Of a stretch of DNA of 27,079 nucleotides, positions 1,790 through 27,079 are shown one piece after another. The notes under the pieces were generated by a model that had not been told where the DNA came from, did not search any database, and worked only from the letters and a program-made list of their open reading frames with translations. Each line of letters starts with the position of its first letter. The stretch's first letter is position 1. This DNA is from a virus: positions 1 through 27,079 of IMG/VR virus record IMGVR_UViG_3300013131_000210; one strand, 5' to 3'. A program made the position numbers and the translations under genes.

Positions 1790-1796
1790 ATTTGAT

Positions 1797-1830
1797 CCCA
1801 AAGTGTATATGATTATTTATACACTTTGGG
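1797..1830 (-). promoter_or_regulatory. Perfect 13-bp hairpin masking the endonuclease ribosome binding site
   Basis: Minus-strand arms CCCAAAGTGTATA (1830-1818) and TATACACTTTGGG (1809-1797) pair perfectly around the 8-base loop AATAATCA (1817-1810). The GGGA before the endonuclease ATG (1799-1796, six bases of spacing) overlaps the base of the 3' arm by three bases. A message read through from gene 55 should fold and hide it. No U-run follows the stem on the minus strand, so a standard intrinsic terminator is less likely. The layout matches the known T4 arrangement in which a 5' hairpin silences early or middle transcripts of I-TevI. Confidence 0.8.
1814..1821 (-). promoter_or_regulatory. 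T4-type late promoter octamer TATAAATA inside the hairpin
   Basis: An exact TATAAATA (1821 to 1814 on the minus strand) is the T4 late promoter consensus recognised by gp55. TATA ends the 5' arm of the hairpin and AATA begins the loop. With T4 spacing, transcription would start near 1808, after the 5' arm, so the message could not form the hairpin. It would have a leader of about 19 bases before the endonuclease ATG. The position of the start is inferred. Confidence 0.75.
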
Positions 1831-6800: not shown

Positions 6801-6917
6801 ACCAAGATGGACATAAGCCTGATACTGCATCCCATGCAGAGTCGCGAGCAGGTCAGCAAACAGTTCAGCCTTAAACAGTATGCCAATGGTGATCTGCTCA
6901 AGGGAGGGTTTTGGTAA
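3831..6917 (+). CDS. 48: gp48-like baseplate tail-tube cap with a long repetitive N-terminal extension
   Basis: Of 1028 residues only the last 250 or so (from DWRVRLRL at 777) look like a conserved fold. There FPYTPQITTAYKATY, HSNYRGYFYQSSQVEDI, FFRSVTKMFYG and PADVDYI resemble the T4/cyanophage gp48 family (364 residues in T4), which caps the baseplate hub and starts the tail tube. The first 776 residues are acidic and Ala/Pro/Glu-rich: Pro-rich 25-75; a beta-like, Gly/Thr-rich stretch about 85-220; Ala/Glu-rich helix about 225-300; four 32-33-residue repeats at 339-467; then acidic segments with two copies of VETDTGFF. A SSPPPPP tract lies near the C-terminus. It is first in the late operon and overlaps the next ATG by one base (TAATG). 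The gp48 name is from remembered family patterns; the extension has no assigned role. Confidence 0.75.
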   Translation: MAEENPQDVDPATDPQVEDAPSTAVPLAEIDTSPAPVPPATNPEVPQPAPEQAVTPPPPPDEAFLEQQTAQENRWIQAAATNPDGINDNGSVVIDRGGGVRETINRDGSYEISSGSGTFRYDAAGQETSYTTPTINGLSQTYTTDGVVVETYAVGGLRTETISYNNQIVSTNTTVQLGATTLQQIQVGEGPPVNTASTVIANLTEGTAGVQITATQVGDGEIITSTVDREQRRLDLLAADEARADAADQLRQDIRDAQAQTESGIPLGPTQLAAIEEQAQAVAAAEEAVLEAEQALAEADPTVLAPDSDPQVSEPADQDPIPSLATTDFEPAAVDPGQDPEVADYAAQQEAAEFVPVADISDEPLAVAAESDPEVADYAAQQEAAEFVPLADIDTGPAQVTEDEEILSFEEAQAQDEFVPESEIDLAAAAVDPADDPAIAEFEAQQEAAEFVPVADVEVDPTVVSDADPQLPPADQPIRVSDLVVPSADDPTLFQPTDTLPDAFVYQAADTPEDDPIVLAQADNIATDVALVDVTSGPDIVGEDDPAVPQEVAPPEGGFFGEPTPVGGNFAASYDPETGNYDVVDLDTGQVVETGLSQQQATLAAQDFSLGDPQFPNETEDLAAAAESGLIREPTDVDVAEAQFVETDTGFFELQEEAAPQPDEFGFVETDTGFFVTQDEIEAEIDQEQFENELGAEEFVPLSEIEDAPEPVLASDAAEYGADAEAEGEITEFTADGPVTRDANEAIAEAARQKSTLDRARAQNILQQQRKQANDGDWRVRLRLAPNAQYLYKSDSPGILRPLAVTDGVVFPYTPQITTAYKATYSPYDLTHSNYRGYFYQSSQVEDIQLNATFTAQDTAEANYLLAVIHFFRSVTKMFYGQNDAFRGAPPPLVFLQGFGEYQFNLNPCAVASFNYVLPADVDYIRAGSPNINGTNLLQRRDRQDLPTNPFSSAWTRINNVLKPQGIKKGAVSSPPPPPTLGTNRPTYVPTKMDISLILHPMQSREQVSKQFSLKQYANGDLLKGGFW
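4845..5231 (+). repeat. Four tandem 32-33-residue repeats in the gp48-like protein
   Basis: In-frame units start at 4845, 4944, 5040 and 5136 (residues 339, 372, 404, 436). Units 1, 2 and 4 share D-P-x-hydrophobic-A, then AQQEAAEFVP and a D/E-rich end; unit 3 is diverged but keeps DEFVPESEID. The core EFVPxAD/SE is also found singly near residues 25-31 (VPLAEI) and 695-705 (EEFVPLSEI), giving about six copies of one short motif. Copies 1 and 2 are almost identical in DNA too, so duplication is recent or the array is being kept uniform. Confidence 0.85.
6902..6908 (+). promoter_or_regulatory. Ribosome binding site deciding the gp53-like start
   Basis: GGGAGGG lies eight bases before the ATG at 6917, inside the last codons of the preceding gene. 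It favours this ATG over a TTG at 6911 in the same frame. Confidence 0.75.
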
Positions 6918-7216
6918 TGGCCAACTACAATTCTACCAGTCCTTATTTTGTCACTCCCTACAGCCAGTTTTTCCTTGATGTCATGGTGAACCGCCCTATA
7001 CCCAAGGAGTCAGACGATCAACTGTTCCAGATCAACGAGACCTATCAGTACAGGCCGGACATGCTGGCCTTTGATCTGTACGACACGCCAGATCTCTGGT
7101 GGGTGTTCTATCAACGCAATCCCAACACGCTCACAGCACCGCCCTGGGACTTTATGGCCGGTCAAACCATCTATCTTCCCAAGATAACCACTCTGCGCAC
7201 AGTGCTGGGATTCTAA
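6917..7216 (+). CDS. 53: gp53-like baseplate wedge protein
   Basis: A 99-residue protein starting MANYNSTSPY at an ATG overlapping the previous TAA. The central part RPIPKESDDQLFQINETYQYRPDMLAFDLYDTPDLWWVFYQRNP and the ending GQTIYLPKITTLRTVLGF have the compact LysM-like pattern of gp53 from T4-type phages (W-W-x-F-x-x-x-N-x-N, then a strand with a Pro). T4 gp53 is about twice as long (196), so this is a minimal form, as in many marine relatives. In T4 it joins the wedge late and helps link wedges to the hub. It sits between the gp48-like and the 1187-residue genes, four bases before the next start. Confidence 0.82.
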   Translation: MANYNSTSPYFVTPYSQFFLDVMVNRPIPKESDDQLFQINETYQYRPDMLAFDLYDTPDLWWVFYQRNPNTLTAPPWDFMAGQTIYLPKITTLRTVLGF

Positions 7217-10787: not shown

Positions 10788-13298
10788 ATGCCTGATAATG
10801 TTTCGCGTACCAAGGGTCGCAGCAAAGGATACAAGTTTGATCGCGGTGGCATGCCCGCTGAGTTTGGACCATTCATTGGTATCGTGAAAAACAATGTGGA
10901 TCCCACCAGATCCGGGCGACTGCAGGTCTACATTGAATCGTTCAGTGCCGGTGATCCCGAGGATGCCAGCAAGTGGCGTACAGTATCCTACGTGCCACCT
11001 TTTTATGGACTCACACCACATACCGGTACCAGTGCCGGTGCAGGCACATTCACTGGCAATCAACAGAGTTACGGCATGTGGTTCACACCACCGGATCTCA
11101 ACACCCAAGTGGCATGTTTCTTCGCTGAAGGCGATCCCAATCAAGGATACTATTTCGCCTGCGTGCCCGACACAGGTATCAATCACATGATACCGGCCAT
11201 TGGTGCCAGCCGCAAATTTGCCTTGGAAAATGGACCGCAAGACAGTTATTTCGCAGGTGCTAGTCAGTTGCCTGTCACAGAAATCAACACCGAAAATGAA
11301 GAGATCGACGAAGATCCCAGATTCTTTGACCAGATCAAACCGGTGCACAGTTATCTGGCCGGCATCTTGATGCAGCAGGGCTTGATCAAGGATACCACTC
11401 GCGGCCCCATCACCAGCAACAGCCAGAGAGAATCACCATCCGCGTGTTTCGGTATAAGCACACCGGGTCGTGCCATCTATCAGGGCGGCCTGTCAGAACG
11501 CGATATCAAAGGACAACTGGAACGCAATCAGATACAACCGCAGGATGTTGAAGTCATAGCCAGACGTGGTGGCCACAGCCTTGTGATGGATGATGGTGAT
11601 CTTGAAGGCAAGGACGATCTCGTCCGCATACGCACAGCCAAAGGTCATCAGATAACCATGAGCGATGACGGTGACTGTTTTTTTATCATACACGCCAATG
11701 GCCAGACCTGGTTGGAATTTGGCAAGCAGGGCACAGTGGATGTATTCTCTACCAATTCAGTTAACATACGCACACAAGGCACCATAAATCTCCATGCGGA
11801 CAAGGACATCAACATGTATGCGGGCGGTGCTGTAAATGTCAAAAGCAAGACCATGAAACTGGAAGGCGAAGCGTCGGTAGATGTCATTGGCACAGGCAAA
11901 CTGACCTTGTACAGCAAAAGTCTCGTAGGCGTCAAAAGCGATGGCAGCCTGGCCTTGAAATCCACCACAGGATCCTGGGATGGTGGAGGCAGCCTCAATT
12001 TGAAGGCTGGCTGTATCAATTTGAACAGCGGCACGGCAGCACCAGTGACCACACCCACCAACCTCAAGGATCTCAGCCTGGCCGACACCAAGTTTGTTAC
12101 CGGCACTGGCTGGACTGTGGAGTTTGGCAAACTGAAAACCATAGTTACCAGAGCTCCCACACACGAACCTTACCCCTATCACAACCAAGGTGTGAACGCT
12201 GTGGCCGAGCTCAGCGAAACACCGGCCACTGATCTCACAGAAGCCACGGCGGAAACCCTGGCCGGGCTCGAAGATGTGCCCGTGACTGACGGCATTGATT
12301 CTGCGGCATTCCTAGAACAGACACCTGCGGAGATATCTGTGGGCAGCCTGGACACCACGCAGGTCACTGGCCTGCTGGCACAGACTGCCTCAGACGTTGA
12401 TCAGGCCTCTGATGTGATATCAGCGGACAAAGGCATTGGCAAGTTCGGTTTATCAGCGGATCAGTTGGAATCATCGGGGTTCCTCAAACCCGGCACAGTA
12501 CAGACTTTCCTGCAGGATCCTGCACAGTTGGAATCAGTGCTGAGCTCACCACAGGTCTGGACCGGCAAGGCCGGCGTAGGTGGTCTAGGTCCCTTGTTGG
12601 CGGATGTGAATCTACAGAGTCTCACACAGAACGAAATCATGGTGTCGGCCTTGGATGGATTGAAATCTGCGGGCATCGTCACAGGATCAGAATCTCCCAC
12701 AGACTTGGCCAGTTTCGTGCAGACCGCCAGCAAGTTTGGAGTGGACAACACAGCAGCCTGGGTCAAGGGCCTGGCACCACCGGATCTGGTGTCAGAAATC
12801 AACTCCGTGGCCAAGAATGCCCAGTACGCAGTGAATTTCGTGGACAGCAAGGCGTCTGAGTTGGTCAAGGGTGGCGTACAACTGGGCGGCTTCACTGGCA
12901 CAGTGGAACGCAGCGAACTGGACTTGGCCCTGGCTCAGGTCATCGGCAATCCCAAGATACCCACTCCAAATTACAGTTCCAGCCTGTTCAGTTCTGTGCC
13001 CAATGAAGAACTGGTATATGACAACGATGCCGATGACGTGGACGTGGAACGCATAGATCAGGAGCGAGAAGTGCGAGGCCTGCCGCCCGTGGTAGAAGTG
13101 CAAACTGCTGCGGGTGACACTGTACGAACCAGTTCTGCTTCTAATCCTGTGAACCAGCAGATCACCCTGATCAATAACGAGATCTTTGATCTCGAACAGA
13201 TCGTGGCTGCACGGCAGCGTCGCGGTCAAGATTCCTCTGCACAACAAGCCGAGCTGGTCAGCTTGCGGGCCAGATTGTCAAGATTGCTGGCTGGTTAA
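10788..13298 (+). CDS. 5: gp5-like baseplate hub/spike protein without a visible lysozyme domain
   Basis: The 836-residue product starts with an OB-fold (about 26-130: FGPFIGIVKNNVDPTRSGRLQVYI, then FFAEGDPNQGYYFACVPD), as in T4 gp5 and VgrG. A middle link (TSNSQRESPSACFGISTPG, IYQGG) leads to a beta-helix (about 262-416) with strand repeats such as NSVNIRTQGTINLHADKDIN and NMYAGGAVNVKSKTMKL. The gp5 spike punctures the outer membrane. T4 gp5 has a lysozyme domain between OB-fold and helix; here the link has no such pattern and is too short. After the helix come about 420 more residues, including a helical segment (about 550-690: LSADQLESSGFLKPGTVQ, VWTGKAGVGGLGPLL) and a final coiled coil (791-836). 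ATG at 10788 is three bases after the previous stop. Confidence 0.85.
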   Translation: MPDNVSRTKGRSKGYKFDRGGMPAEFGPFIGIVKNNVDPTRSGRLQVYIESFSAGDPEDASKWRTVSYVPPFYGLTPHTGTSAGAGTFTGNQQSYGMWFTPPDLNTQVACFFAEGDPNQGYYFACVPDTGINHMIPAIGASRKFALENGPQDSYFAGASQLPVTEINTENEEIDEDPRFFDQIKPVHSYLAGILMQQGLIKDTTRGPITSNSQRESPSACFGISTPGRAIYQGGLSERDIKGQLERNQIQPQDVEVIARRGGHSLVMDDGDLEGKDDLVRIRTAKGHQITMSDDGDCFFIIHANGQTWLEFGKQGTVDVFSTNSVNIRTQGTINLHADKDINMYAGGAVNVKSKTMKLEGEASVDVIGTGKLTLYSKSLVGVKSDGSLALKSTTGSWDGGGSLNLKAGCINLNSGTAAPVTTPTNLKDLSLADTKFVTGTGWTVEFGKLKTIVTRAPTHEPYPYHNQGVNAVAELSETPATDLTEATAETLAGLEDVPVTDGIDSAAFLEQTPAEISVGSLDTTQVTGLLAQTASDVDQASDVISADKGIGKFGLSADQLESSGFLKPGTVQTFLQDPAQLESVLSSPQVWTGKAGVGGLGPLLADVNLQSLTQNEIMVSALDGLKSAGIVTGSESPTDLASFVQTASKFGVDNTAAWVKGLAPPDLVSEINSVAKNAQYAVNFVDSKASELVKGGVQLGGFTGTVERSELDLALAQVIGNPKIPTPNYSSSLFSSVPNEELVYDNDADDVDVERIDQEREVRGLPPVVEVQTAAGDTVRTSSASNPVNQQITLINNEIFDLEQIVAARQRRGQDSSAQQAELVSLRARLSRLLAG

Positions 13299-13306
13299 AT
13301 ACTCAC

Positions 13307-13681
13307 ATGCCCACATTCATAGGATTCAACACCATCAATCAGTTTAAAAAATTCACCTTGGTGGATTTTGAACTGATCAAACGAGATCTTGCCAACGCCT
13401 TCAACATACAGCAGGGCGAACTGCCAGGAAGACCCGGCTACGGTACCACCATATGGAGTTATGTGTTTGAAAACCAAACTGAGACCACTGAAACAACTAT
13501 CCTTGCAGAAATACAGCGTGTGGCCGGTGGTGATCCCAGGATCTATGTCGCATCTGCCAATGTGTATCCCCAGGACAACGGTATCTTGATCGAGGTCGAA
13601 ATACAGGTAGTGGCATCGTCTACCGCAGAACGCCTAGCCATATTCTTTGATCAAGAAACACGTAGAGCCAGCTTTATCTAA
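13307..13681 (+). CDS. 25: gp25-like baseplate wedge subunit
   Basis: The 124-residue product has the gp25/gpW fold pattern: an N-terminal helix (FTLVDFELIKRDLANAFNIQ), a loop GELPGRPGYGTTIWSYVFE, a helix TTILAEIQRVAGGDPR, and two strands (IYVASANVYPQD, ILIEVEIQVVAS). Length is close to T4 gp25 (132). gp25 binds gp6 and gp53 at the wedge core and helps trigger sheath contraction; it is one of the most conserved baseplate proteins of contractile injection systems. It lies directly before gp6, as in T4. The ATG is eight bases after the gp5 stop. Nothing unusual is seen. Confidence 0.93.
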   Translation: MPTFIGFNTINQFKKFTLVDFELIKRDLANAFNIQQGELPGRPGYGTTIWSYVFENQTETTETTILAEIQRVAGGDPRIYVASANVYPQDNGILIEVEIQVVASSTAERLAIFFDQETRRASFI

Positions 13682-13730: not shown

Positions 13731-16700
13731 ATGGCCAAGACTGCTAGACAAACTGCTATATTCGGCGTAGAAGACTGGAAAAGACTGTATCAGACCTACA
13801 GAGAAGGCGACTTCCAAAGCTACGATTTTGAAACTCTACGCAAGAGTTTCGTTGACTATCTCCGCTTATACTACCCCGAAACGTTCAATGATTACATAGA
13901 GAGTTCAGAGTTCATCGCCTTGCTAGATGTCATGGCATTCATGGGCCAGGCCCTGGCGTTCCGCAACGATCTAAACGCCAGAGAAAACTTTCTTGACACA
14001 GCGGAACGCCGAGATAGTGTAGTTCGCTTGGCCAACCTGGTTAGCTATACTCCCAAACGCAACAATGCCGCCCAGGGATTCCTCAAGGTTTTTTCTGTGG
14101 CCACCACGGAAAATCTCACAGATTTCAATGGCATCAATCTCAGCAATGTCACCGTAGACTGGAACGATCCTACCAATGCCAACTGGTTGGAACAGTTTAC
14201 ACAGATCATCAATGCTGCCTTGGTAGACAGCCAGAAATTTGGTCGCCCAGGTAACGAACAAGACTTGTTGGGCGTGCGTACTTCGGAATATGCCATCAAT
14301 CTCGTACCGGGATTCTTGCCAGTGATCCCTTATACTGCCACGGTAGACGGGGTAAGCATGCCGTTTGAAGCTGTGAGTGGCACCAGCGAAGGTCGTGACT
14401 ACATCTATGAACTGGCACCAAGACCGTCAGGCACGTTCAACATCCTGTATCGCAACGATCAACTGGGATTTGGATCCGACAACACCGGATACTTTTTCTT
14501 TTTCAAACAGGGCGTGCTGCAGAACCAAGACTTTAACTTGGCCGAGGCCATACCCAATCGCACTGTTAACGTCAACATCGAAGGTTGCAACCAAGAAGAC
14601 CATTGGCTATACAAACTGGATGACCTGGGCAGTATCGCGTCAGAATGGGACTTTGTTGAAAGCATCTATGCCGGTGCTGTGGAACAGCTGGCACCAGACC
14701 AACGCCGACTGTACAGCATCACCAGCCGAGCCAATGACCAGATCACCTTGACCTTTGGTGATGGCGTGTTCGCTGAAGTGCCAGTGGGTTTCTTCCGTGC
14801 CTATGTGCGTGCCAGCAACGGCTTGCAGTACATCATCAACCCCGAAGAGATGCAGGCTGTATTGATTCCTATCAGTTACATCAGTCGCTTTGGTCGCTTG
14901 GAAACCATCACATTCACCTGCGGTATCACACAGCCTGTAAGCAACGCCGAAGCACGCGAGACCATACAAGAGATCAAGCAACGAGCACCTGCACGGTACT
15001 ACACACAGAATAGAATGGTCAACGGCGAAGACTACAACAATTTTCCATTCACACGATACAATTCCATCATCAAATCCAAGGCCGTGGCTCGAAGCAGCGT
15101 GGGTACATCACGCTACATTGATCTCACTGACGTCACTGGCAAGTATTCCAGTACCAACATCTTTGCCTCAGACGGTGTGATCTATCGGCAGAACGTGCTG
15201 CCCACTTTTGACTTTGACTGGGTGGATCGCAATGAAATCGTGGATGTGATCAACAATTCAGTGGAACCGTTGTTGCCCAGTCGCGGCACCTTGCAATTTT
15301 ACTATGCTAATTTTCCACGGCCCAACCTGGCCGTGCTCAATCTGGCCTGGCAGCAGAGCACTCGCCTGGTCAACGAAACCACGGGCTTCTTCTATGTAGG
15401 CACATCAGCCGCACCTCAGAGCATTGGCAGTTATGCCAGCAACAATGCCCGGTACATCACACAAGGGAGTTTGATCAAGTTTGAACCTCCCACAGGATTC
15501 TTTTTTGATGCCAACAATCGCTTGGTGGCTGGTGTGCCTGTGCGTGCCGATGAGAAACTGGTGATCTGGGCCACGGTCGCTGCCGTGGTGTTAGATGGTA
15601 CCAACAACGGCGTGGGCAATCTGCCAGACGGATCTGGTCCAGTGGCCTTGAACAATTTCGTGCCCACGGGTGCTCTGGCCACACAAGTCATCCCCAAGTT
15701 CATTACGGACCTACCTTCTGCCTTGGAACAGAGCATGCTGCAACAGATCGAACTGTTCCGCAATTTTGGCCTGGGCTATGATAATCTCACAGCAACTTGG
15801 TACATCATAACTTCTACCAATCTCGCACAGGATGCTGCATTCAGCCTGACCAATGCACAAAGCACAGCAGGCACCAATCTTGATGCTTCTTGGTTGATAC
15901 AGTTCGTCACAGATGGTCTAAATTATACTGTGACATCTCGCCAGTTGGATTACGTCTGGGCATCAGTGATACAAACACGCTTTACCTTTGATGGCCTTGA
16001 GGAAGTGTATGACAGCCGCACAGGCCTGGTGATCAACGATTTTATCAAAGCTTTAAAAACCAACTCACGTCCCGACAGTAACGAACCCTTGCCCACAGAC
16101 ATCACCATGGACATCATAGCACAGCCCATCGAAAGCGATGGATTTATAGATGATTACCAGGTGGTTGTCAGTTACACAGACAGTGACGGTGATGGCATAG
16201 CCGATGATCCTGATTTCTTTGATACCCTAGTGGCACCCACGGTGGCACCCACAACCAAACTTGTGTTCCTACAACTCACCACGGACTTTGATGATCTTGA
16301 AAGATATCTGCCCGTGGCTGCCGGTGTGGTCAACACTCTTTACACCACAGAAGATGCCATAGAATTGGTCAAGATCGAGTATGTAAATGGTCAGATATTC
16401 TATGCCACCACGGAAGAAACATTCTACGAACTGCAAGTGGCCCTGATCAATGGCGTGATACAACGCACCCTGTTACCACGCACTGACTTCGTCAGCAGAG
16501 TGGGCCGTCAGAGCCTGTACTTCCAGTACAGACACAACTCACCATTGACCAATGTGATAGATCCTGGTGTTACAAACATCATCGATCTCTACGTGGTTGA
16601 ACAACAGTATTACACACAGTATCAGAACTACATCCGCGACACTACCGGCACTGTGCCGGAACCCGCCATACCCACCATAGATCAATTGACCACGGCCTAT

Positions 16701-17330
16701 TCTGGTCTCAATGATTACAAGATGATATCTGACAACCTGGTGCTGAATTCAGTGCTGTTCAAACCTTTGTTTGGTGCCAAGGCTGCACCGGAATTGCGGG
16801 CAGTGATCAAGGTGGTCAGAGCACCCAAGACCACAGCGTCTGTGAGTGAAATCAAGAGCCAGGTAGTGGCCAACATGAATGCCTATTTCAGCATTGACAA
16901 ATGGGACTTTGGGGACAGTTTCTTCTTCTCGGAACTGGCAGCATACCTCCACGAACAGATGGGATCAATAATCTCTTCCGTGGTGTTGGTGCCGTTGAAT
17001 CCTTTAAAGACCTTTGGCGACCTCTATGAGATACGATCCGCACCCAATGAGATATTTGCCAACGCTGCCACAGTCACAGACGTGGAAGTGATCGAAGCAC
17101 TCACGCAGAGCAATCTACGCACCCAAACATCAGTGTCAGGATTGTATCCATCATCCAATACCTTTGCCCAAGGCACCGCAGGCAGAGGTACTGCTACCAC
17201 TTCTGCCACCACTTCGTCGTCATCTGGCAGCATCACTCCAAATCCAATACCTTACGGCTATGGTGGAGGCGGTAGCAGTAGCGGCGGTAGCAGCGGTGGT
17301 GGAAGTAGCAGCGGTGGTGGAGGTTACTGA
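13731..17330 (+). CDS. 6: gp6-like baseplate wedge protein, extended
   Basis: The 1199-residue product opens with the gp6 signature (FGVEDWKRLYQTYREGDFQSYDFETLRKSFVDYL, then SSEFIALLDVMAFMGQALAFRNDLNARENFLDTA). Near 419 it has the baseplate_J-type APARYYTQNRMVNGEDYNNFP. gp6 dimers form the inner ring that ties the six wedges together. T4 gp6 has 660 residues; here the gp6 pattern covers about the first half, and the rest is extra beta-rich sequence. It includes DSDGDGIADDPD (817-828), which looks like a calcium-binding loop, and a Gly/Ser tail (about 1174-1199). Its stop TGA overlaps the ATG of the next gene (TGATG), and GGAGG at 17319-17323 within the Gly codons serves that gene. Confidence 0.9.
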   Translation: MAKTARQTAIFGVEDWKRLYQTYREGDFQSYDFETLRKSFVDYLRLYYPETFNDYIESSEFIALLDVMAFMGQALAFRNDLNARENFLDTAERRDSVVRLANLVSYTPKRNNAAQGFLKVFSVATTENLTDFNGINLSNVTVDWNDPTNANWLEQFTQIINAALVDSQKFGRPGNEQDLLGVRTSEYAINLVPGFLPVIPYTATVDGVSMPFEAVSGTSEGRDYIYELAPRPSGTFNILYRNDQLGFGSDNTGYFFFFKQGVLQNQDFNLAEAIPNRTVNVNIEGCNQEDHWLYKLDDLGSIASEWDFVESIYAGAVEQLAPDQRRLYSITSRANDQITLTFGDGVFAEVPVGFFRAYVRASNGLQYIINPEEMQAVLIPISYISRFGRLETITFTCGITQPVSNAEARETIQEIKQRAPARYYTQNRMVNGEDYNNFPFTRYNSIIKSKAVARSSVGTSRYIDLTDVTGKYSSTNIFASDGVIYRQNVLPTFDFDWVDRNEIVDVINNSVEPLLPSRGTLQFYYANFPRPNLAVLNLAWQQSTRLVNETTGFFYVGTSAAPQSIGSYASNNARYITQGSLIKFEPPTGFFFDANNRLVAGVPVRADEKLVIWATVAAVVLDGTNNGVGNLPDGSGPVALNNFVPTGALATQVIPKFITDLPSALEQSMLQQIELFRNFGLGYDNLTATWYIITSTNLAQDAAFSLTNAQSTAGTNLDASWLIQFVTDGLNYTVTSRQLDYVWASVIQTRFTFDGLEEVYDSRTGLVINDFIKALKTNSRPDSNEPLPTDITMDIIAQPIESDGFIDDYQVVVSYTDSDGDGIADDPDFFDTLVAPTVAPTTKLVFLQLTTDFDDLERYLPVAAGVVNTLYTTEDAIELVKIEYVNGQIFYATTEETFYELQVALINGVIQRTLLPRTDFVSRVGRQSLYFQYRHNSPLTNVIDPGVTNIIDLYVVEQQYYTQYQNYIRDTTGTVPEPAIPTIDQLTTAYSGLNDYKMISDNLVLNSVLFKPLFGAKAAPELRAVIKVVRAPKTTASVSEIKSQVVANMNAYFSIDKWDFGDSFFFSELAAYLHEQMGSIISSVVLVPLNPLKTFGDLYEIRSAPNEIFANAATVTDVEVIEALTQSNLRTQTSVSGLYPSSNTFAQGTAGRGTATTSATTSSSSGSITPNPIPYGYGGGGSSSGGSSGGGSSSGGGGY
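17319..17323 (+). promoter_or_regulatory. Ribosome binding site of the giant baseplate gene
   Basis: GGAGG lies six bases before the ATG at 17330. It is formed by glycine codons of the gp6 tail, so the end of gp6 and the start of its neighbour are tied together. Confidence 0.8.
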
Positions 17331-20300
17331 TGGCCAGTCGTCGTACAGTAGATCTACTGCCAGAGATATTCCGCACTGAGACCAACAAGCAGTTCCTGGC
17401 CGCCACCCTAGATCAGCTCACACAAGAACCTAATCTCAAACGCACCCAGGGCTATGTGGGACGTCGTGTGGGTCCGGGGGTCGATCCCGCTGATAACTAT
17501 GTCACAGAACCCACTGCCACACGCACGGACTATCAGTTGGAACCCGGGGTGGTATTCTTCAAACCCGAAACCACACAGCCGCTAGATGCCATCACTTATC
17601 CTGGCATGATCGATGCCTTGGACCTCTTGGGCAGCAACACACAACGTGCCGATCGGCTATTCTCCAGCGAATTCTACAGTTGGGATCCTTTCTGCGATCT
17701 TGACAAGTTCACCAACTACAGCCAGTATTATTGGTTGCCCGGCGGTCCTGATTCAGTAGACGTAGGCAGCACCACCATACCGCTCACTGACGCCTGGGAA
17801 ATCACACGCACTGCCACAGGCTATGAATTCAGCGACGAAAGTGGTCGCAATCCTGTGATCACCCTGGTGCGTGGCGGCAACTACACGTTCACGGTCAACC
17901 AACCTGGGCATGGATTCTGGATACAGGCTGCTCCAGGTGTCGCTGGCACCATGCCTGCCACCCCCAACATTTCAAGCAGAGATGTTCTGGGTGTGGTCAA
18001 CAACGGCGAAGACCAAGGCACTGTGACATTCAATGTGCCGCTGAAGACTGCACAGGATTTCTACTACACACTGAATGACCTTGGAACAGTGGATCTTCTC
18101 ACTGATCTCAAGTTCAATCAAATCAATAATATCTATGTGAGTGCTTTCCTGGCCGCCAATCCCGACGGTATAGACGGCATAACCAACTTGAACAATCGCA
18201 CCGTGGTGTTTACCAACACCATCGTGGATGCCCAAGATGGCGGCTGGCAGATCAACACACAGTTTGACCCGTTGGCCCAGGTCACCACCAACAACGGACT
18301 CACAGGCAGTTATGATACCACCCTGTTCGATCAGACCACGGACATAACCAGCCAGGCACAGAGATATTCTGTGTGGCAGATACAGTATGTGCTGGATGAT
18401 GATGGCAATCTCTACATGCAGCTTAACAGCGTGCTCACGGTGCCTAATCTCAGCAAATTCCGTATTTCATTTGGTGCCCAGTGGTCTAGCACACAGTGGT
18501 ATAAAAATTCATCGGGATATTTTGAACAGATCCCCTTGCTCACAGCAGTGCTGGACACCGTGTATTATCAGGACTCCTCTGATCCGGTCTTGTTTGGTCG
18601 TATCCGACTGATAGATCCTGAAGAAGTTGATACCCTGGACATCGATGAAATCATCGGTGCCAAGAACTACACCAGCCCCAACGGTGTAGTATTCACCAAT
18701 GGATTAAAAGTGCAGTTCCGTGGCACTATCAATCCGTCAAGATATCAGAACTTGGAATACTATGTTGAAGGCGTAGGTACCGGACCCGGCATAGATGCTC
18801 GCGTGGGATTCATTGACGGAGAGGCATACTTTGGTGCGTTCCATGTGCATCAAGGACAGAAGATGACCGGTCCAACGCACGTAGACACTTTCCATCAGTT
18901 CATCTATGACACAATAGAAGAAAGCCTGGCCAATCCCGGAGCAGGTGGTCCTGCAGGAGCTCCCTTGAGCACACAAGGGGTGCTCAATGCCACGCAAGGA
19001 AACGGTATCAAACTGCTGCCAGTGTCCAATTTCGTCACACCAGAAACTTACACCAAGAGCGAAACTGTGCCCTATGATTCCACATCATATGACAGCACGC
19101 CTTATGACGCCAACGACAATGCTCCGCTAGTAACAGACTATCTCACCATCAATCGTGCCAGCAGAGACCTCAATGCCTGGACCCGCAGCAATCGTTGGTT
19201 CCACACAGACGTGATCCAGGCCACTGCGGTCTACAACAATCAGATCGCTGTGCTGGACAACGAATATCGTGCTCGCCGGCCCATCGTTGAGTTCCGTGCC
19301 AACATCAATCTCTACAACTTTGGCACACAAGGCAAGCAGCCAGTGGATATCATCGACTTCCAGGCCACAGATGCTTTCAGCGACATCAATGGTCAAGTGC
19401 AGTACAACATCGATGGATATCCGTTCATCGATGGCACCCGAGTGATATTCGCAGCTGATCTCGATCCTGAAGTGCGTAACAATATCTACGAGGTGGAATT
19501 TATCGATCCCGACGGCGTCACAGGATCACCCAAGATAATCAATCTCGCACTGGCCGTGAATGGCACAGCTTTGATTGACCAGACCGTGGTGTGTCTCAGT
19601 GGCAACACCCAGCAGGGTTTGAGTTTTTGGTATGATGGGGTGGATTGGGTACGTGGCCAGCAGAAAACCAATGTGAATCAAGCACCATTGTTTGACATCT
19701 ATGATGTGAACGGACGCAGTCTCGGTGATCTTGCTGTATACCCCAGCAGCACTTTTGCGGGTACCAAACTGTTTGGTTATGCTCTGGGCGATACCCAGAT
19801 CACAGATTCGGTGTTGGGATTCAGTATAAAATATCTCAATCTCAACAATGTGGGCGACATAGTTTTTGAAAACTATCTCTACACCGATACCTTCCTGTAT
19901 GTGATAGACAATGTCAGTTCAGAACAGCCCATCAACAGTGGATTCGTGCGGCAGTACATCGATCGCACAGGATTCTCCAATCTCATTGGTTGGCAGACCG
20001 CGGCCGCAGAAAGCCGCCAGCGACAGGTATTCCGTTTTGTCTACGACAGTGAGCCATTGGTGTTGGATGTGCCTTTGGATGAGACCACTACATTTGCACC
20101 CTTGCAGATCTTCCAAGGCACACAGTTTATCGATCCCACCAATTACACCTATGTGGTCACGGGCAATGCCACGCAGATCACGCTGACCACGCCACCTGCT
20201 GTGGGCACCATAATCGAAGTGCAGGCCTATAGCAACCAGACCAGTTCAGTGGCGTTCTATCAAGTGCCGGCGAATCTGGAAAACAACACCCTTAACGAAA

Positions 20301-23300
20301 ATTCTGATTCGTTCACCCTGGGCACCATTCGCACCCATTATGAAAGCATTGGACAGAATCTCCGCGATATCCAAGGTCCCATCGTAGGAGCCAACAACTC
20401 TAGAGATCTTGGTAACATACTGATCTATGGCGACACCATCATACAGAATTCCGCACCCGTGGCTCTGGGCGGTGTATTTTTAAGAGACCGACAGTTTGAA
20501 GTGATATCCGCTATAGAATTCAACAGCAGAGAGTATGAAAAATACAAGGCTCGGCTGTTGGATCTGGCCACCAAGGGCGACTACATCAACAATACTCCCA
20601 CGCAAGTGCTTGACTCGGTAATAACCGAAATAGCCTTGGGCAAGAGCGATATTAGTCCGTTCTACTGGTCAGACATGTTGCCGGCGGGACAGAATTACAC
20701 GGAAACCACATATCCCATCACGCCCATCAGCACCAACACCTTTGACACCCTGCAGCTCTATGATTACACTTCCAGCAACTACATGGGAATGTCGGTGTAT
20801 CTCAATGGTATTATACTCACTCGCGGCTATGATTACGAAGTGGTCTCGGACAGCCGCACCATCACTGTGTCTGCTGCATTGGCAGAGGGCGATGTCATCG
20901 TGATCAGAGAATTTTCAGCCACCTATGGCACCTATGTGCCTAACACTCCCACCAAGATGGGCCTTTACTCGGCGTATCGTCCAGAACTGTTTGTAGATGA
21001 AGGATATCTCACGCCCACGCCAGTGATCCGTGGACACGATGGATCCATAACCGTGGCCTTTGGCGACTATCGCGATGCGGTATTGTTGGAGTTTGAAACA
21101 CGCATATTCAACAATCTCAAGATAGTCACAGACATACCGCTGACAGCGGATGAAGTGATCCCGGGCCAGTTCCGTACCACAGAATACACCCTGGGCGAGA
21201 TCAACACCATCCTGGCTCCGGATTTTCTCAGTTGGGTTGGCTATAACAAGTTAGATTATACCTCACAGACTTATTTGGCCGCGGATGCTTTTACCTACAA
21301 CTACAGCCAGAGTGCAAACCGGCTGAACCGCCAACCCTTGCTGGGTGCCTGGCGAGGCATCTACAACTATTTCTATGACACCACTGCACCCAACACACGC
21401 CCCTGGGAGATGCTGGGTTTCAGTCAAGAACCCACTTGGTGGCAGGACTACTATGGTCCAGCACCTTACACGTCAGGTAACTTGGTGCTGTGGGAAGATT
21501 TGGCCCTGGGTCTGGTGAGAGATCCTGCAGGCGAATATGTTTTACCCCAATATCGTCGTCCGGACCTTTTGAGTGTTATTCCGTCGGGATCTGAAGGCGA
21601 ACTATTACCACCCATAGACACCACTACAGGCAACTATGATGCCACCAGTTTCCGTCGGAGCTGGACCTTTGGCGATGATGGTCCTGTGGAAAACGTATGG
21701 CGTTCATCATCAGCCTGGCCGTTTGCCGTGATGCGATTGTTAGCTCTCACCAAGCCCGCGAAGTTTTTCAGCTTGTTCGCCGATCGTGATCGCTATGTGT
21801 TTGATCCTGATATAGCACAGTATCTCTGGGATCAACGCTATCGCTTGGATGCCAAACTCTTGTCACCGCTGTACGGCAACGGCACCAGCAAGGCCAGTTA
21901 CATCGACTGGATCATAGACTACAATCGCCAACTGGGAGTTAACAGCACCACTCGCCTCACTGACACACTGAACAACATTGGTGTGCGGCTGTGCTGGCGT
22001 ATGGCCGCATTCTCAGACAAGCGATATCTCAAACTCTACACTGAACGCAGCACACCCAACAGTCTCAATGCCAGCCTGCTGCTGCCCGACGAAAGTTATC
22101 AGCTGTTGTTGTACAAGAACCAACCGTTTGGCCAGGCAGCATTCAGTTCCATCGTGGTGCAGAGCACCGACACAGGTTGGCAGGTCTACGGATACGATGC
22201 CACCAGACCCTATTTTGAAATCCTGACCAGCCGACCCAACGGCAATCTCATTACCTTGTCTGCGGGTGGTGCCACGGCTCGTGTGGCAGTGGATCACACC
22301 GATACCGTGGTGCAAGTGCCTTATGGCTACACCTTTACCAATGTAACCGCTGTGTGTGATTTCATCTACAGCTATGGTCTACTGTTAGAGCAACAGGGAT
22401 TCACATTTGACACCCGTGAGAACGGTTACATAATGAACTGGCTGCAGATGTGCCAGGAGTTCTTGTACTGGAGCGAACAGGGCTGGGAATCCGGCAGCAT
22501 CATCAATCTCAACCCTGGTGCCACCAGAATCACTGTCACCCAGCCCGGTACTGTGGTAGACAGCCTCAATGTTCTCAGACCAGAGAACCTCATACTGAAC
22601 CAGAATCGACAGCCATTGCCTGCGTCAGATCTCGTGATCGAACGTTTGGAAAACACCTTCCGGGCCACCAGCCTCACCAGCAATACCATCAACTATCTCA
22701 ACGTGTCATTCACTGCTTTTGAACACATGGTGATCTTGGACAATGTTTCGATCTTCGCTGATCTCATATACCAACCTGTGACAGGAGCACGGCAGAGCCG
22801 CATCCTGGTGTCGGGCACATTGTCAGGTGAATGGAATGGCACAGTGAACGCACCTGGATTCGTGCTCAACCAAGACAACATCGCACAGTGGGTGCCCAAT
22901 CAGGGCTATGCCAAGGGCGAGATCGTGTTGTTCAAGAATGAGTACTGGTCAGCGTCAGTGATCATCCAGCCCAGCGAACAGTTCGATTATACCTTGTGGA
23001 TCAAGAGCGACTATGACGAAATACAAAAAGGTCTCTTGCCCAACGCAGCCAACTCATCGGATCAATTGGCCACGGCCTATTCAGTGTATGATGCTAATCT
23101 CGCACAGGAAGTTGATCTATTCAGTTACGGACTTATAGGATTCCGACCCAGAGAATACATGCAGGCCTTGAATCTTGACGATGTGAGCCAGGTCAATCTC
23201 TATCAGCAGTTCCTAGGATCCAAGGGCACCCTACGCAGTGCGGAGATATTTTCTTTCGCTGATCTCGGCAAAGAAACTGCCCAGTATGACATCTACGAGT

Positions 23301-26300
23301 ACTGGGCCATGCTACGCAGCCAGTACGGTGCCACAGCCAATCGCAACTACATAGAACTGCGGCTGAATGAAGCCCTGCTCCGCAGCGATCCCAGTCTAGT
23401 CCAGATCATCCAACCACAGCAGACATCTCAGGCAGACCAGACTGTGCTGCTGCAAAACGTCTGGAAGAGCAGTGATAAACTCACCAGCACTGACATACTG
23501 CCCACCACTGTCACACCCAACCAAGATTCGGCCTTGCCCTCGGCAGGATATGTTAATCTAGAAGACGTGGATCTCACGGTGTTTGATGTAGAAGAATTAT
23601 CAGCATCATTGACCACGCTTGACGTCAATAAGCTAGGCGTAGGCAGCACATTGTGGGTGGCCAAGAGCAATGCCTACGATTGGAATGTGTATCGATTGAA
23701 ATCAGTGCCCGGTGACATCATTGTGGTCAGCGACAATCTCGACGGTCGTGCCTTGGTACAATTTGATGATCAACACGGCCTTGACATAAATGACGATCTC
23801 ATCATACGGTTCTTTGATCCCACAATCGACGGCGCCTATCGTGTGGTCTCAGTGCCCAGCCTGAACACAGTGCTGATCAACTATGTGTTCTTGGGCACAC
23901 AGACCACAGTCACTGGCGTAGGTGTGGGATTTACTTTGGATTCCGCCCGGATCACACAGGCCGCAGATGTGGTCACGCTGCCGTTTGCCACGGAACTGAC
24001 CACAGGGTCGCGTGTGTGGGTGGACAACAACGGCCAAGGGCTATGGACAGTGCTGGAGAAAACCAATCCCTTTACCGCACAACGAGATATCACTCCAGAA
24101 CAGCCCATATCAGGTGCCTTGTATGGTACCAGTGTGAGCCAAGGCTTCCAGAATCTTGTGGCCATGGTGGGTGCACCTGGTGTGCTACCCTCCGGCTCGG
24201 TGTATACCTATGTGAAAACCGATTCCAATACACTCCAACAGAACTTGATTCTGACCCTGGACACCACTGGTGCTGCAGGATTTGGCAATGCCATGGACAT
24301 GGGAGATCAGACCTGGGCAGTGATTGGTGCCGATACCAGCCTCGGCAATCAAGGCTATGCCGTGGTGATCTTCAATCCACCCACTGCTAACTCTTTCCAG
24401 AAATGGCAGTTGTTGGTCACTCCTCCAGACGAAGTCATCACTGCCGCGGATAGATTTGGTCACAGTGTCACTGTGAGCCAGGATGAGCATTGGTTGTACG
24501 TGGGAGCACCCGGAGCCAATCGAGTGTATGTGTACGGACGAGTGGATGTGCCTTTGCAAAATGTCACATATACCACCGACGGCACCACATTCATCTACGA
24601 CTATGGTGATTCCATCATAGTAGACACTGACAGCCAGTTGACAGTGGTCTTGGCAAATGCCATACAGACCCTAAGTGTTGACTACACCGTGAGCGGCAGC
24701 AACATCGTATTCATATCAATACCACCTGCAGGACTGAGATTGATCATATCTCGCAAATTCCTCAAGAATTTCACAGGTGATGGAGCTACTACGGATTATG
24801 CTCTGGATGACATATATTCAGCAGAAAACATCAACTCTTTCTCAGTGTATGTGGATGAGGTGCTGCAGAGACCCAAGTACGACTATGACTTTGGCGAAGC
24901 CAGTTCGCTGGATCTGGTATTCGTATCAGCACCGGCCGTGGATGCCACGATACAGGTGCGCGCTCTGACCTATTGGCAACCAGTGACTTCAATCACCGTG
25001 GCTGGCCTGGCCAGCGATGCTGAATTTGGTCACAGCGTGAGCACCAGCACCGACGGACGCACTGTGATAGTGGGATGTCCGGGTACAGAATCAGGTGAAG
25101 GTCGTGTGTATGTGTTTGATCGAGCCGTGGAAAGATTCCAGATCACTGATGCTAGCACCTTGGCCTATACCACGGTACGAAGCCTGGCAGTGCCCGGTGC
25201 TCCCATTAATGTGTTGCTCAATGGAGTGTTCCTTGCCAACTCAGCAGGCAGCGTCACAGGAGAATTTTCCATTGCAGGTAATACTGTGACTCTGGACACA
25301 GACATTGAAGTGGGCGATGTGCTAGAAATACAAACCAACCAGTTTGCATTGATCCAGACCTTGGCCGATGATCAACCATTTGAATCTGCCGAGTATGGTT
25401 ATGTGGTGGATCAGTGCGTGAATGACTGCAGCCTTTACATCGGTGCACCATTTGATGGCAGTGTATTGCCCGAAGCGGGTCACGTGGAATATCAACTCAA
25501 TCAGAGCCGGGTATATGGTTTCACTGAGAGTCCGGTGGCCAACGGTGTGCTCACATCGGGTGATCGCATCCGTGTGAATGACTACATGGTGGAACTTGCC
25601 GGTGTCACTGTATACAACAGTGGATCAAGTTATGTTATCGATGATTATGTGTTGGTGTCAGGAACCGATATATTCCGTGCTGTGCGTGCAGTGCCTGCTG
25701 GTATCAGCATCACTGATGTGACCTACTGGCAACCAGCCAACTGGAGCACAGCGTTGGCCACAGACATAAATGCAGCCGCAGTGCCCAATGCCGTGGCCAC
25801 CGTCACGGCCAACGCAGAGTTCATAGGTGATGGAACGACGAAATCTTTCAACGTGGGCACTGTGTATTCTGATGCTGGCACATATACCACCTTGGTATAT
25901 GTGAACAATGTGCGGCAGACTGCTTCAGTGAACTACACCTATGACGCTGCCACTACCACAGTGACCTTTGTGAACGCACCCATAAACGACAGCGAGATCC
26001 GAGTGATCGGTGCACGATTGATTTTATCTGTGAAAAATCAAGCTGCCTCGGTGGCTCTAAACCGTATCACAGTGTTGCCGGGCACTGGTACCTTGTTCAC
26101 AGATCTTGAGTTCGAGACCTATGTGTACACCCAGACCATCACCAGCCCTGTGCCCCAGGACTATGCACACTTTGGCCAGAGCGTATTCATCAGCGACAGC
26201 ACCGTGGATCTGGTAATAGGTGCACCCAATGGTACCGTGATCGAATCCACCACATTTGACGATGACACCACGGTGTTTGATGCACAGAGCACGAGATTTT

Positions 26301-27079
26301 TTGATCCTGTGGCCAACAGTGGTGTGGTGTATACGTTTGATTTCTTACCTGCTGCTTCGGCGTCGGTTGACAATCCTGGACAGTTCGTGTTCGGTCAACA
26401 GATCTACGATTCAGAGATGAGCACCCAGGATCAGTTTGGTGCCGCTGTGGATTACACCACTGGCATACTTTTGATTGGTGTGCCCGGTGAAGACTTTGAA
26501 GACAGCACTGTGAACTATGGTCGAGTGGCCGAATTCCGCAACAGCAGCCGCGGCCCTGCTTGGCAGACCATCAGGCTACAACGACCTGTGGTGGACATTG
26601 AGTTGATGAACACTGTGTTCATGTATGATCGTGTGAGTGGCAGTGCCAAGCAGTATTTTGATTTCTTTGATCCTTTGCAGGGACGTGTGCTGGGTGCTGT
26701 ACGACAGAACTTAAACTACATCGGTGCCGTGGATCCTGCGGCCTACAACGTGGGTCCCTTGAACAACTTTGGCCAGCGTTGGGCACAAGAACGTGTGGGC
26801 GAGATCTGGTGGAATACCACCAATACTCGTTTCATCGATCCCAACCAAGACGACATCGTGTATGCCAGCCGTCGCTGGGGACAACTATTCCCAGGCAGCA
26901 CCGTGGAAGTGTATCAGTGGATCTCCAGTTCTGTGCCGCCGGCCCTGTACACTGGCACAGGCACACCCAGAGACATACAGAGTTACTCTATAACATCTTC
27001 CATCAACGAACAAGGAGTATTTGGTACCACCTACTTCTTCTGGGTCACTGGCATCCGCAACGTGGATCGTACAGCACGC
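17330..27079 (+). CDS. Giant gp7/VrlC-type baseplate structural protein, partial at the 3' end
   Basis: One frame stays open for all 3250 codons to the window edge, so the protein is longer still; T4 gp7 has 1032. The N-terminus (ASRRTVDLLPEIFRTETNKQF, LAATLDQLTQEPNL, then LFSSEFYSWDPFCDLDKFTNYSQYYWLPGGPD) matches my memory of large baseplate proteins after gp6 in cyanophages, called gp7-like or VrlC. About 1250-1900 is the most conserved-looking part (PNTRPWEMLGFSQEPTWW, YLWDQRYRLDAKLL, GYIMNWLQMCQEF). From about 2260 to 3070 there are seven FG-GAP-like blades with other domains between them. At least six beta modules of the kind seen in tail fibres (ending PPxGxxIxV or similar) occur near residues 900, 1140, 2410, 2480, 2610 and 2830. 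Translation is likely coupled to gp6 through TGATG. Role as wedge protein is inferred from position. Confidence 0.75.
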   Translation, partial: MASRRTVDLLPEIFRTETNKQFLAATLDQLTQEPNLKRTQGYVGRRVGPGVDPADNYVTEPTATRTDYQLEPGVVFFKPETTQPLDAITYPGMIDALDLLGSNTQRADRLFSSEFYSWDPFCDLDKFTNYSQYYWLPGGPDSVDVGSTTIPLTDAWEITRTATGYEFSDESGRNPVITLVRGGNYTFTVNQPGHGFWIQAAPGVAGTMPATPNISSRDVLGVVNNGEDQGTVTFNVPLKTAQDFYYTLNDLGTVDLLTDLKFNQINNIYVSAFLAANPDGIDGITNLNNRTVVFTNTIVDAQDGGWQINTQFDPLAQVTTNNGLTGSYDTTLFDQTTDITSQAQRYSVWQIQYVLDDDGNLYMQLNSVLTVPNLSKFRISFGAQWSSTQWYKNSSGYFEQIPLLTAVLDTVYYQDSSDPVLFGRIRLIDPEEVDTLDIDEIIGAKNYTSPNGVVFTNGLKVQFRGTINPSRYQNLEYYVEGVGTGPGIDARVGFIDGEAYFGAFHVHQGQKMTGPTHVDTFHQFIYDTIEESLANPGAGGPAGAPLSTQGVLNATQGNGIKLLPVSNFVTPETYTKSETVPYDSTSYDSTPYDANDNAPLVTDYLTINRASRDLNAWTRSNRWFHTDVIQATAVYNNQIAVLDNEYRARRPIVEFRANINLYNFGTQGKQPVDIIDFQATDAFSDINGQVQYNIDGYPFIDGTRVIFAADLDPEVRNNIYEVEFIDPDGVTGSPKIINLALAVNGTALIDQTVVCLSGNTQQGLSFWYDGVDWVRGQQKTNVNQAPLFDIYDVNGRSLGDLAVYPSSTFAGTKLFGYALGDTQITDSVLGFSIKYLNLNNVGDIVFENYLYTDTFLYVIDNVSSEQPINSGFVRQYIDRTGFSNLIGWQTAAAESRQRQVFRFVYDSEPLVLDVPLDETTTFAPLQIFQGTQFIDPTNYTYVVTGNATQITLTTPPAVGTIIEVQAYSNQTSSVAFYQVPANLENNTLNENSDSFTLGTIRTHYESIGQNLRDIQGPIVGANNSRDLGNILIYGDTIIQNSAPVALGGVFLRDRQFEVISAIEFNSREYEKYKARLLDLATKGDYINNTPTQVLDSVITEIALGKSDISPFYWSDMLPAGQNYTETTYPITPISTNTFDTLQLYDYTSSNYMGMSVYLNGIILTRGYDYEVVSDSRTITVSAALAEGDVIVIREFSATYGTYVPNTPTKMGLYSAYRPELFVDEGYLTPTPVIRGHDGSITVAFGDYRDAVLLEFETRIFNNLKIVTDIPLTADEVIPGQFRTTEYTLGEINTILAPDFLSWVGYNKLDYTSQTYLAADAFTYNYSQSANRLNRQPLLGAWRGIYNYFYDTTAPNTRPWEMLGFSQEPTWWQDYYGPAPYTSGNLVLWEDLALGLVRDPAGEYVLPQYRRPDLLSVIPSGSEGELLPPIDTTTGNYDATSFRRSWTFGDDGPVENVWRSSSAWPFAVMRLLALTKPAKFFSLFADRDRYVFDPDIAQYLWDQRYRLDAKLLSPLYGNGTSKASYIDWIIDYNRQLGVNSTTRLTDTLNNIGVRLCWRMAAFSDKRYLKLYTERSTPNSLNASLLLPDESYQLLLYKNQPFGQAAFSSIVVQSTDTGWQVYGYDATRPYFEILTSRPNGNLITLSAGGATARVAVDHTDTVVQVPYGYTFTNVTAVCDFIYSYGLLLEQQGFTFDTRENGYIMNWLQMCQEFLYWSEQGWESGSIINLNPGATRITVTQPGTVVDSLNVLRPENLILNQNRQPLPASDLVIERLENTFRATSLTSNTINYLNVSFTAFEHMVILDNVSIFADLIYQPVTGARQSRILVSGTLSGEWNGTVNAPGFVLNQDNIAQWVPNQGYAKGEIVLFKNEYWSASVIIQPSEQFDYTLWIKSDYDEIQKGLLPNAANSSDQLATAYSVYDANLAQEVDLFSYGLIGFRPREYMQALNLDDVSQVNLYQQFLGSKGTLRSAEIFSFADLGKETAQYDIYEYWAMLRSQYGATANRNYIELRLNEALLRSDPSLVQIIQPQQTSQADQTVLLQNVWKSSDKLTSTDILPTTVTPNQDSALPSAGYVNLEDVDLTVFDVEELSASLTTLDVNKLGVGSTLWVAKSNAYDWNVYRLKSVPGDIIVVSDNLDGRALVQFDDQHGLDINDDLIIRFFDPTIDGAYRVVSVPSLNTVLINYVFLGTQTTVTGVGVGFTLDSARITQAADVVTLPFATELTTGSRVWVDNNGQGLWTVLEKTNPFTAQRDITPEQPISGALYGTSVSQGFQNLVAMVGAPGVLPSGSVYTYVKTDSNTLQQNLILTLDTTGAAGFGNAMDMGDQTWAVIGADTSLGNQGYAVVIFNPPTANSFQKWQLLVTPPDEVITAADRFGHSVTVSQDEHWLYVGAPGANRVYVYGRVDVPLQNVTYTTDGTTFIYDYGDSIIVDTDSQLTVVLANAIQTLSVDYTVSGSNIVFISIPPAGLRLIISRKFLKNFTGDGATTDYALDDIYSAENINSFSVYVDEVLQRPKYDYDFGEASSLDLVFVSAPAVDATIQVRALTYWQPVTSITVAGLASDAEFGHSVSTSTDGRTVIVGCPGTESGEGRVYVFDRAVERFQITDASTLAYTTVRSLAVPGAPINVLLNGVFLANSAGSVTGEFSIAGNTVTLDTDIEVGDVLEIQTNQFALIQTLADDQPFESAEYGYVVDQCVNDCSLYIGAPFDGSVLPEAGHVEYQLNQSRVYGFTESPVANGVLTSGDRIRVNDYMVELAGVTVYNSGSSYVIDDYVLVSGTDIFRAVRAVPAGISITDVTYWQPANWSTALATDINAAAVPNAVATVTANAEFIGDGTTKSFNVGTVYSDAGTYTTLVYVNNVRQTASVNYTYDAATTTVTFVNAPINDSEIRVIGARLILSVKNQAASVALNRITVLPGTGTLFTDLEFETYVYTQTITSPVPQDYAHFGQSVFISDSTVDLVIGAPNGTVIESTTFDDDTTVFDAQSTRFFDPVANSGVVYTFDFLPAASASVDNPGQFVFGQQIYDSEMSTQDQFGAAVDYTTGILLIGVPGEDFEDSTVNYGRVAEFRNSSRGPAWQTIRLQRPVVDIELMNTVFMYDRVSGSAKQYFDFFDPLQGRVLGAVRQNLNYIGAVDPAAYNVGPLNNFGQRWAQERVGEIWWNTTNTRFIDPNQDDIVYASRRWGQLFPGSTVEVYQWISSSVPPALYTGTGTPRDIQSYSITSSINEQGVFGTTYFFWVTGIRNVDRTAR
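24107..26545 (+). repeat. Seven FG-GAP-like blades (putative beta-propeller) in the giant baseplate protein
   Basis: FG-type motifs start near residues 2265 (YGTSV...MVGAPG), 2318 (FGNAM...VIGAD), 2376 (FGHSVTVSQDEHWLYVGAPG), 2566 (FGHSVSTSTDGRTVIVGCPG), 2689 (YGYVV...LYIGAP), 2948 (FGQSVFISDSTVDLVIGAP) and 3036 (FGAAV...LLIGVPGED). Most are followed by a VYVY/VYTF-type strand. Seven is the blade number of integrin-alpha propellers. The DxDxDG calcium loops of integrins are not seen. Blades 3-6 are separated by 125-260 residues, so other domains are inserted between them. A single closed propeller is inferred, not shown. Confidence 0.75.
24569..26017 (+). repeat. Tail-fibre-type beta modules inserted between the FG-GAP blades
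   Basis: Four modules of about 60-70 residues: about 24569-24760 (TTDGTTFIYDYGD ... PPAGLRLIIS), 24770-24970 (FTGDGATTDYALDD ... APAVDATIQVRAL), 25160-25348 (LAYTTVRSLAVPG ... IEVGDVLEIQT) and 25821-26017 (FIGDGTTKSFNVG ... APINDSEIRVIGA). Shared plan: G-D-G-T/A-T opening or equivalent, V-Y-V-x-x-V/L in the middle, F/L-x-x-x-P/A and I-x-V at the end. Similar units occur near 20030-20235 and 20738-20914. This kind of module is frequent in phage tail fibres. Limits are approximate. Confidence 0.6.

Follow-up and report, generated by a model that had tools for sequence, protein, structure and literature searches.

Beta-propellers are already known from phage baseplates, and phage proteins with FG-GAP repeats are already present in databases. 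The baseplate propeller Gp45 of phage phi11 has a cavity that was proposed to bind the GlcNAc of wall teichoic acid, while the propeller of phiKZ gp131C lies at the periphery of a jumbo-phage baseplate and was proposed to be a receptor-binding or cell-degrading domain (PMC4901313). The virion of phage CBB contains a Kelch propeller (PMC5259590). We found no paper in the open-access literature that joins FG-GAP repeats with phage baseplates or with a giant protein in the wedge position. The new element described here is an integrin-type propeller that was inserted once in a giant wedge-position protein of an uncultured jumbo-phage lineage and that carries exchangeable inter-blade modules.

The baseplate gene cluster and the giant protein

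The window (the whole stretch of DNA that was analysed, 27,079 bases) is a fragment of the genome of an uncultured virus and encodes, on its plus strand, a cluster of baseplate genes of the T4 type. No DNA nearly identical to it was found in the phage collection. The features of this cluster and of the conserved parts of its last open reading frame are the following.

6911-7216, plus strand: small baseplate wedge subunit, probably gp53-type (phrog_7145, baseplate wedge subunit, E 1.5e-21)
10788-13298, plus strand: gp5-type hub or spike protein (phrog_13211, E 4.9e-37)
13307-13681, plus strand: gp25-type wedge protein (PF04965, E 2.9e-8)
13731-17330, plus strand: gp6-type baseplate wedge protein, immediately upstream of the giant ORF (phrog_10646, E 8e-276; phrog_219, E 4e-25)
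17330-27079, plus strand: giant virion protein ORF, first 3250 residues, cut by the end of the window
22580-23674, plus strand: PRE region before the propeller, residues 1751-2115, conserved and common to isolated jumbo phages
22874-23020, plus strand: residues 1849-1897, fold of the chitin-binding CBM5/12 type within the core, ahead of the propeller (VIA-align)
26573-27079, plus strand: POST domain after the propeller, residues 3082-3250, conserved and common to isolated jumbo phages

The gp6 gene overlaps the start of the giant ORF, and the same gene order was found in isolated phages. The profile search matched the giant protein to phrog_10938, annotated as virion structural protein, with an E-value of 4.1e-258; the protein measures 4650 to 5120 amino acids in complete relatives, against the 3250 that lie inside the window. 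The original prediction had placed a propeller in a giant wedge protein. A giant protein is indeed encoded in the wedge cluster, directly after gp6 as T4 gp7 is, but the T4 gp7 profile did not match it. Comparison by hhalign of two family profiles with a four-sequence gp7 profile gave a best probability of 1.1%, and we rejected homology with gp7 on this basis. The core of the giant protein gave a moderate model (mean pLDDT of 71.8), with no gp7 chain named among the structural matches listed. The label of wedge protein comes from the gene order and from the virion proteomics of relatives. The homologue CBB_236 was represented by 21 peptides in purified virions (PMC5259590), and the record note of the PA5oct homologue marks ESI-MS/MS. 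Presence in the virion is documented for these two homologues. In a broad range of jumbo myoviruses this giant protein is probably a structural component at the periphery of the baseplate.

Elsewhere in the window, a late sigma factor gene (phrog_12791, phrog_234) of 626 amino acids, at 1839-3719 on the minus strand, appears to hold an intein. By eye, from its motifs, the splice junctions would lie at about RGY^CVDQST (N-splice) and VYLTGN^TYNEEM (C-splice). A free-standing homing endonuclease gene (1043-1801, minus strand; phrog_314, E 9e-18) adjoins it.

The predicted propeller and its inter-blade modules

The propeller, its blades and its inserts were delimited as follows.

24065-26572, plus strand: seven-bladed FG-GAP (integrin-alpha-type) beta-propeller with inter-blade modules, residues 2246-3081 (AlphaFold2, VIA-align and Pfam FG-GAP_2)
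24065-24256, plus strand: blade 1, residues 2246-2309, FG motif at 2265
24257-24430, plus strand: blade 2, residues 2310-2367, FG motif at 2318
24431-24550, plus strand: blade 3, strands 1-3, residues 2368-2407, FG motif at 2376; strand 4 at 24959-24997
24551-24958, plus strand: insert I3, in the strand 3-4 hairpin of blade 3, two tail-fibre-type beta modules
24998-25141, plus strand: blade 4, strands 1-3, residues 2557-2604, FG motif at 2566; strand 4 at 25334-25369
25142-25333, plus strand: insert I4, in the strand 3-4 hairpin of blade 4
25370-25507, plus strand: blade 5, strands 1-3, residues 2681-2726, FG motif at 2689; strand 4 at 26108-26149
25508-26107, plus strand: insert I5, in the strand 3-4 hairpin of blade 5
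26150-26413, plus strand: blade 6, residues 2941-3028, FG motif at 2948
26228-26317, plus strand: loop of blade 6 after GAP, residues 2967-2996, signature TFDxxxTxFDxxSTxF
26414-26572, plus strand: blade 7, residues 3029-3081, FG motif at 3036

The seven FG motifs that had been predicted are thus present in the giant ORF, between residues 2265 and 3036. The Pfam family FG-GAP_2 (PF14312) matched the region with an E-value of 3.1e-15 and a score of 56.5 bits against a cutoff of 23, three stretches passing singly. A blade HMM built from relatives found seven blades in the closest loci, with E-values below 1.3e-5 for positives and above 0.67 for negatives.

We modelled residues 2115-3250 with AlphaFold2 from an alignment of 87 sequences (mean pLDDT of 87.8, pTM of 0.80). 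In this model, which is a prediction and not a solved structure, the seven blades close into one propeller domain, as the original prediction of an integrin-like propeller had proposed. The results of VIA-align showed that residues 132-967 of the model (2246-3081 of the protein) superpose on integrin alpha heads, the best match being integrin alphaM (Z of 36.3, rmsd of 2.6 A over 355 residues), and that integrins made up all but one among the 50 matches listed. Foldseek agreed, with integrin alpha5beta1 as its best match (E 5e-9). The interval first proposed for the propeller, 24107-27079, does contain it but needed new limits: the segment of 836 residues starts at 24065 and ends at 26572, and the following 507 nucleotides encode the separate, more conserved POST domain. 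The integrin calcium loop DxDxDGxxD gave three matches in the 87 aligned rows and none in the window, so that metal binding of the integrin type by this propeller is unsupported. Residues 2246-3081 are strongly predicted to form a closed seven-bladed FG-GAP propeller of the integrin alpha type, free of calcium loops.

The beta modules predicted between the blades were found in blades 3, 4 and 5, in each case in the hairpin that joins strand 3 to strand 4. The alignment, the DSSP string and the length table gave 136, 64 and 200 residues for I3, I4 and I5 in the window, while over the 87 sequences I3 ranged from 133 to 355 amino acids, I4 from 61 to 75 and I5 from 88 to 207. The standard deviation of length was 54 amino acids for I3 and 32 for I5, against 0 to 8 for most blade segments. 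An optional YW..W module in I5, at about residues 2760-2805, resembles CBM5/12 by eye only. The 3-4 hairpins of propellers all leave on one side, and therefore the modules of I3, I4 and I5 should lie on a single side of the disc.

The loop of blade 6 carries the signature TFDxxxTxFDxxSTxF in 95 of 124 non-redundant propellers and in one of 32 propeller-less relatives, the shuffled value being 0.11, and its length is nearly constant within the lineage of the window. If the propeller has a functional or locking site, this loop is the strongest candidate. Both its frequency and its constant length would suit an enzyme or former enzyme that modified polysaccharides, with its active site on the face bearing the loop, as would the GDSL esterase found in those family members whose lineage lost the propeller. 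However, the closest folds are binding propellers (integrins) and not hydrolases, the pattern of the loop has a repetitive look and its role may be structural, and no catalytic family profile matched the propeller of the window, which makes an enzymatic role very unlikely.

Insertion and inheritance of the propeller

We examined eight isolated relatives (Atu_ph07, Phosso, PA5oct, RaK2, 121Q, CBB, SCTP-2 and Vibrio 2.275.O), all of which encode a homologue of the giant protein, mostly directly after an annotated baseplate wedge gene. The blade HMM detected no FG-GAP blades in the interval between PRE and POST in any of the eight. This interval is short in RaK2, 121Q and CBB (97 to 99 residues), while Atu_ph07, Phosso and SCTP-2 carry other sequence in place of the propeller, which in Atu_ph07 (L184) and Phosso (L189) spans about 1425 residues with many repeats of the module GxGYxxxPxVxxxGGxGxGA. 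When the flanks of the window were joined in silico, they aligned unbroken to PA5oct with a score of 155 against a shuffled maximum of 52; the scores against PA5oct and the relatives L259 and L220 were 129 to 156, against shuffled maxima of 52 to 57. The insertion site in the sequence coincides with the structural domain boundary of the propeller, and the comparison with isolates together with the model strongly predicts that the propeller is an insertion in the turn between two conserved domains of the giant protein.

Two observations concern other domains in these phages. A LamG/ConA-like stretch (EYWSFD...) was seen by eye close to the propeller site in SCTP-2 (L188:14708-16081) and in one further locus (L304:727-2085), and it gave no Pfam match. 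Atu_ph07, whose giant protein has no propeller, encodes a separate 393-amino-acid "Hemagglutinin" (BFVD A0A2L0UZX4) that matches the propeller fold.

A locus search from a distant alignment (A4) gave no usable stretch, and a degenerate DNA pattern for the POST domain was used instead. It recovered at least 119 stretches in viral contigs, and every one that was checked encodes the POST domain. FG-GAP blades were detected in 44 of the 71 non-redundant family members by Pfam FG-GAP_2 and in 47 by the blade HMM. The latter left a clean gap between positives and negatives and was positive for 167 of 167 close relatives, many of which are the same contigs fetched repeatedly. The search for a host through proviruses or genome bins found no relative of the window in genome contigs.

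An unrooted maximum likelihood tree built from the flanking domains (101 rows by 473 columns) required two changes in the presence of the propeller, compared with 25.2 in shuffles. The first falls on the branch that splits 74 rows from the 27 rows that include all isolates, and the second is one loss inside the 74-row lineage (L205 and L239), in which the propeller is kept in 72 of 74 members. On this unrooted tree the first change could be read in either direction, but gain is simpler than loss, given that the empty site is contiguous. Frequent gain and loss, as of a receptor-binding tip, was rejected with only two changes on the tree. The identity of the blades tracks that of the core with a correlation of 0.83, so that disc and core were inherited together. 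As far as these trees and identities can tell, the propeller is a single, stably and vertically inherited insertion that marks one large metagenomic lineage for which we found no isolate. A GDSL esterase is present in both propeller-less members of this lineage (PF13472, E 1e-14 and 6e-10). Replacement of the propeller by this esterase at the same point was rejected: the esterase occupies a second insertion site, on the upstream side of the GYVN motif.

The inter-blade modules, in contrast, come and go while the propeller is kept. The long form of I3 changed state 14 times on the core tree and the optional YW..W module of I5 seven times, a gain and loss of modules that had been foreseen, as had the greater variability of the region (identity of 0.49 to 0.55) relative to the N-terminal half (0.62 to 0.82). 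Comparison of 14 pairs of close relatives gave dN/dS values of 0.03 to 0.08 for the core, about 0.05 to 0.17 for the blades and 0.08 to 0.32 for the inserts; the inserts were above the core in 14 of 14 pairs (about 0.13 against 0.05). No diversifying selection was seen in these pairs, in which dN/dS was at most 0.32 and selection purifying throughout. The original view of the region as a part under host-driven change did not hold as stated, since the propeller itself is not fast-changing. The faster change of the inserts appears as just that, and host-driven diversification is not proven by it.

The propeller might also be a filler that gives size or rigidity to a giant structural protein, has no specific ligand and is kept by drift and fold stability. 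The wide variation in insert length and the fact that phages with related proteins manage without a propeller would fit such a filler, but the propeller persists in 72 of the 74 members of a deeply divergent lineage and its dN/dS is far below 1, which makes a filler improbable.

Probable role and comparison with known systems

Several parts of the protein family are related to glycans or to fibres. The chitin-binding fold at residues 1849-1897 superposed on chitin deacetylase modules and on the phage Milano baseplate (8fqc_P1) with a Z of about 5 to 7 and 1.3 to 1.7 A over about 45 residues. Residues 1120-1197 (20687-20920) form a tail-fibre or adaptor-type beta-sandwich in the core, with a Z of 7 to 8.5 to several phage tail proteins. 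One relative (L002) carries CBM_5_12 in its C-terminal part (E 8.5e-9), and in the variable interval between PRE and POST other family members have a GDSL esterase, an endosialidase beta-barrel or the T7 tail fibre N-terminal domain PF03906.

These parts bear on two readings. Propellers are common protein-binding platforms, and this one may be a docking scaffold inside the virion for tail fibres, whiskers or other baseplate proteins, one that never touches the host and whose modules act as sockets and vary together with the fibres that they hold. The stable single acquisition, the vertical inheritance and the purifying selection are consistent with such a scaffold, as are the likeness of the inserts to fibre-attachment modules, the occurrence of PF03906 in the interval of family members and the fibre-like fold of residues 1120-1197. 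However, the chitin-binding fold, CBM_5_12 and the GDSL esterase recur in the protein family and would be needless for a scaffold alone. We regard docking as a serious rival, possible although on balance doubtful.

The propeller most likely binds the host or a glycan, a role reached by inference. We favour an adhesion platform because of the presence of homologues in virions, the recurring glycan-related parts and the known baseplate propellers of phi11 and phiKZ with their proposed receptor binding. The 836-residue segment, in a turn of the giant protein encoded after gp6, would fold as a rigid propeller that serves as a display disc. Tail-fibre-type and perhaps carbohydrate-binding modules would project from one side of the disc, where the 3-4 hairpins of the adjacent blades 3 to 5 emerge, and phages would exchange these modules but retain the disc. 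The baseplate would thereby grip a polysaccharide or protein of the host surface, probably during adsorption, in addition to the fibres. To this adhesion reading as a whole we give a probability of about 0.52. Counting against it are the vertical inheritance (0.83) and the absence of diversifying selection, unlike typical host-range tips, as well as the only moderate model of the core and its lack of a gp7 profile match. A wider form of the adhesion reading, in which a single capture of the propeller gave the whole lineage a permanent gripping disc, host specificity was re-tuned by module swaps and the body of the baseplate became a receptor-binding organ, is tentative and rather unlikely.

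The results link one clear innovation in the structure of a baseplate-region protein with a large lineage of uncultured jumbo phages, and an 836-residue region with defined exchangeable modules is short enough to be testable. If the propeller binds hosts, the type of module could help to predict the host range of phages known only from metagenomes, and an integrin-type head would stand on the virus side of the contact between virus and bacterium.

Comparison with T4 gp7 shows a common position directly after gp6, but gp7 has 1032 amino acids against about 4700 and no profile similarity. The giant proteins of CBB, RaK2, 121Q, PA5oct and Atu_ph07 (phrog_10938) have homologous N-terminal, PRE and POST regions and the same order after gp6, and differ by having no FG-GAP propeller at the site. 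Gp45 of the siphophage phi11 has five blades and is a trimeric receptor-binding protein, whereas the propeller of the window is inserted in a protein at the wedge position. The propeller of phiKZ gp131C (PDB 4GBF), compared by description, likewise has seven blades and lies at the periphery of a jumbo-phage baseplate, but it is the C-terminal domain of a separate protein and is not described as FG-GAP (PMC4901313). Bacterial and phage FG-GAP_2 (PF14312) repeat proteins and predicted viral propellers in BFVD (such as A0A6J5S3H5, and A0A2L0UZX4 of Atu_ph07) share the repeat family or the predicted fold, but are mostly separate or uncharacterised proteins.

The likeness to the integrin alpha heads (alphaM 9t3y, alphaX, alphaL, alpha4 and alpha5) lies in the closed seven-bladed propeller and its FG-GAP motifs, with a Z of 32 to 36 and an rmsd of 2.5 to 2.9 over about 350 to 370 residues, at about 18 to 20% identity over the aligned residues. 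The propeller of the window differs in having no DxDxDGxxD calcium loops and in lying inside a phage virion protein, where its flanks are phage-specific conserved domains, and we do not claim that it belongs to the integrin alpha subunits. Extra domains between strands or blades are common to this propeller and to integrins alphaM and alphaX, but integrin has a single I domain, whereas the inserts of the window occupy the strand 3-4 hairpins of blades 3 to 5.
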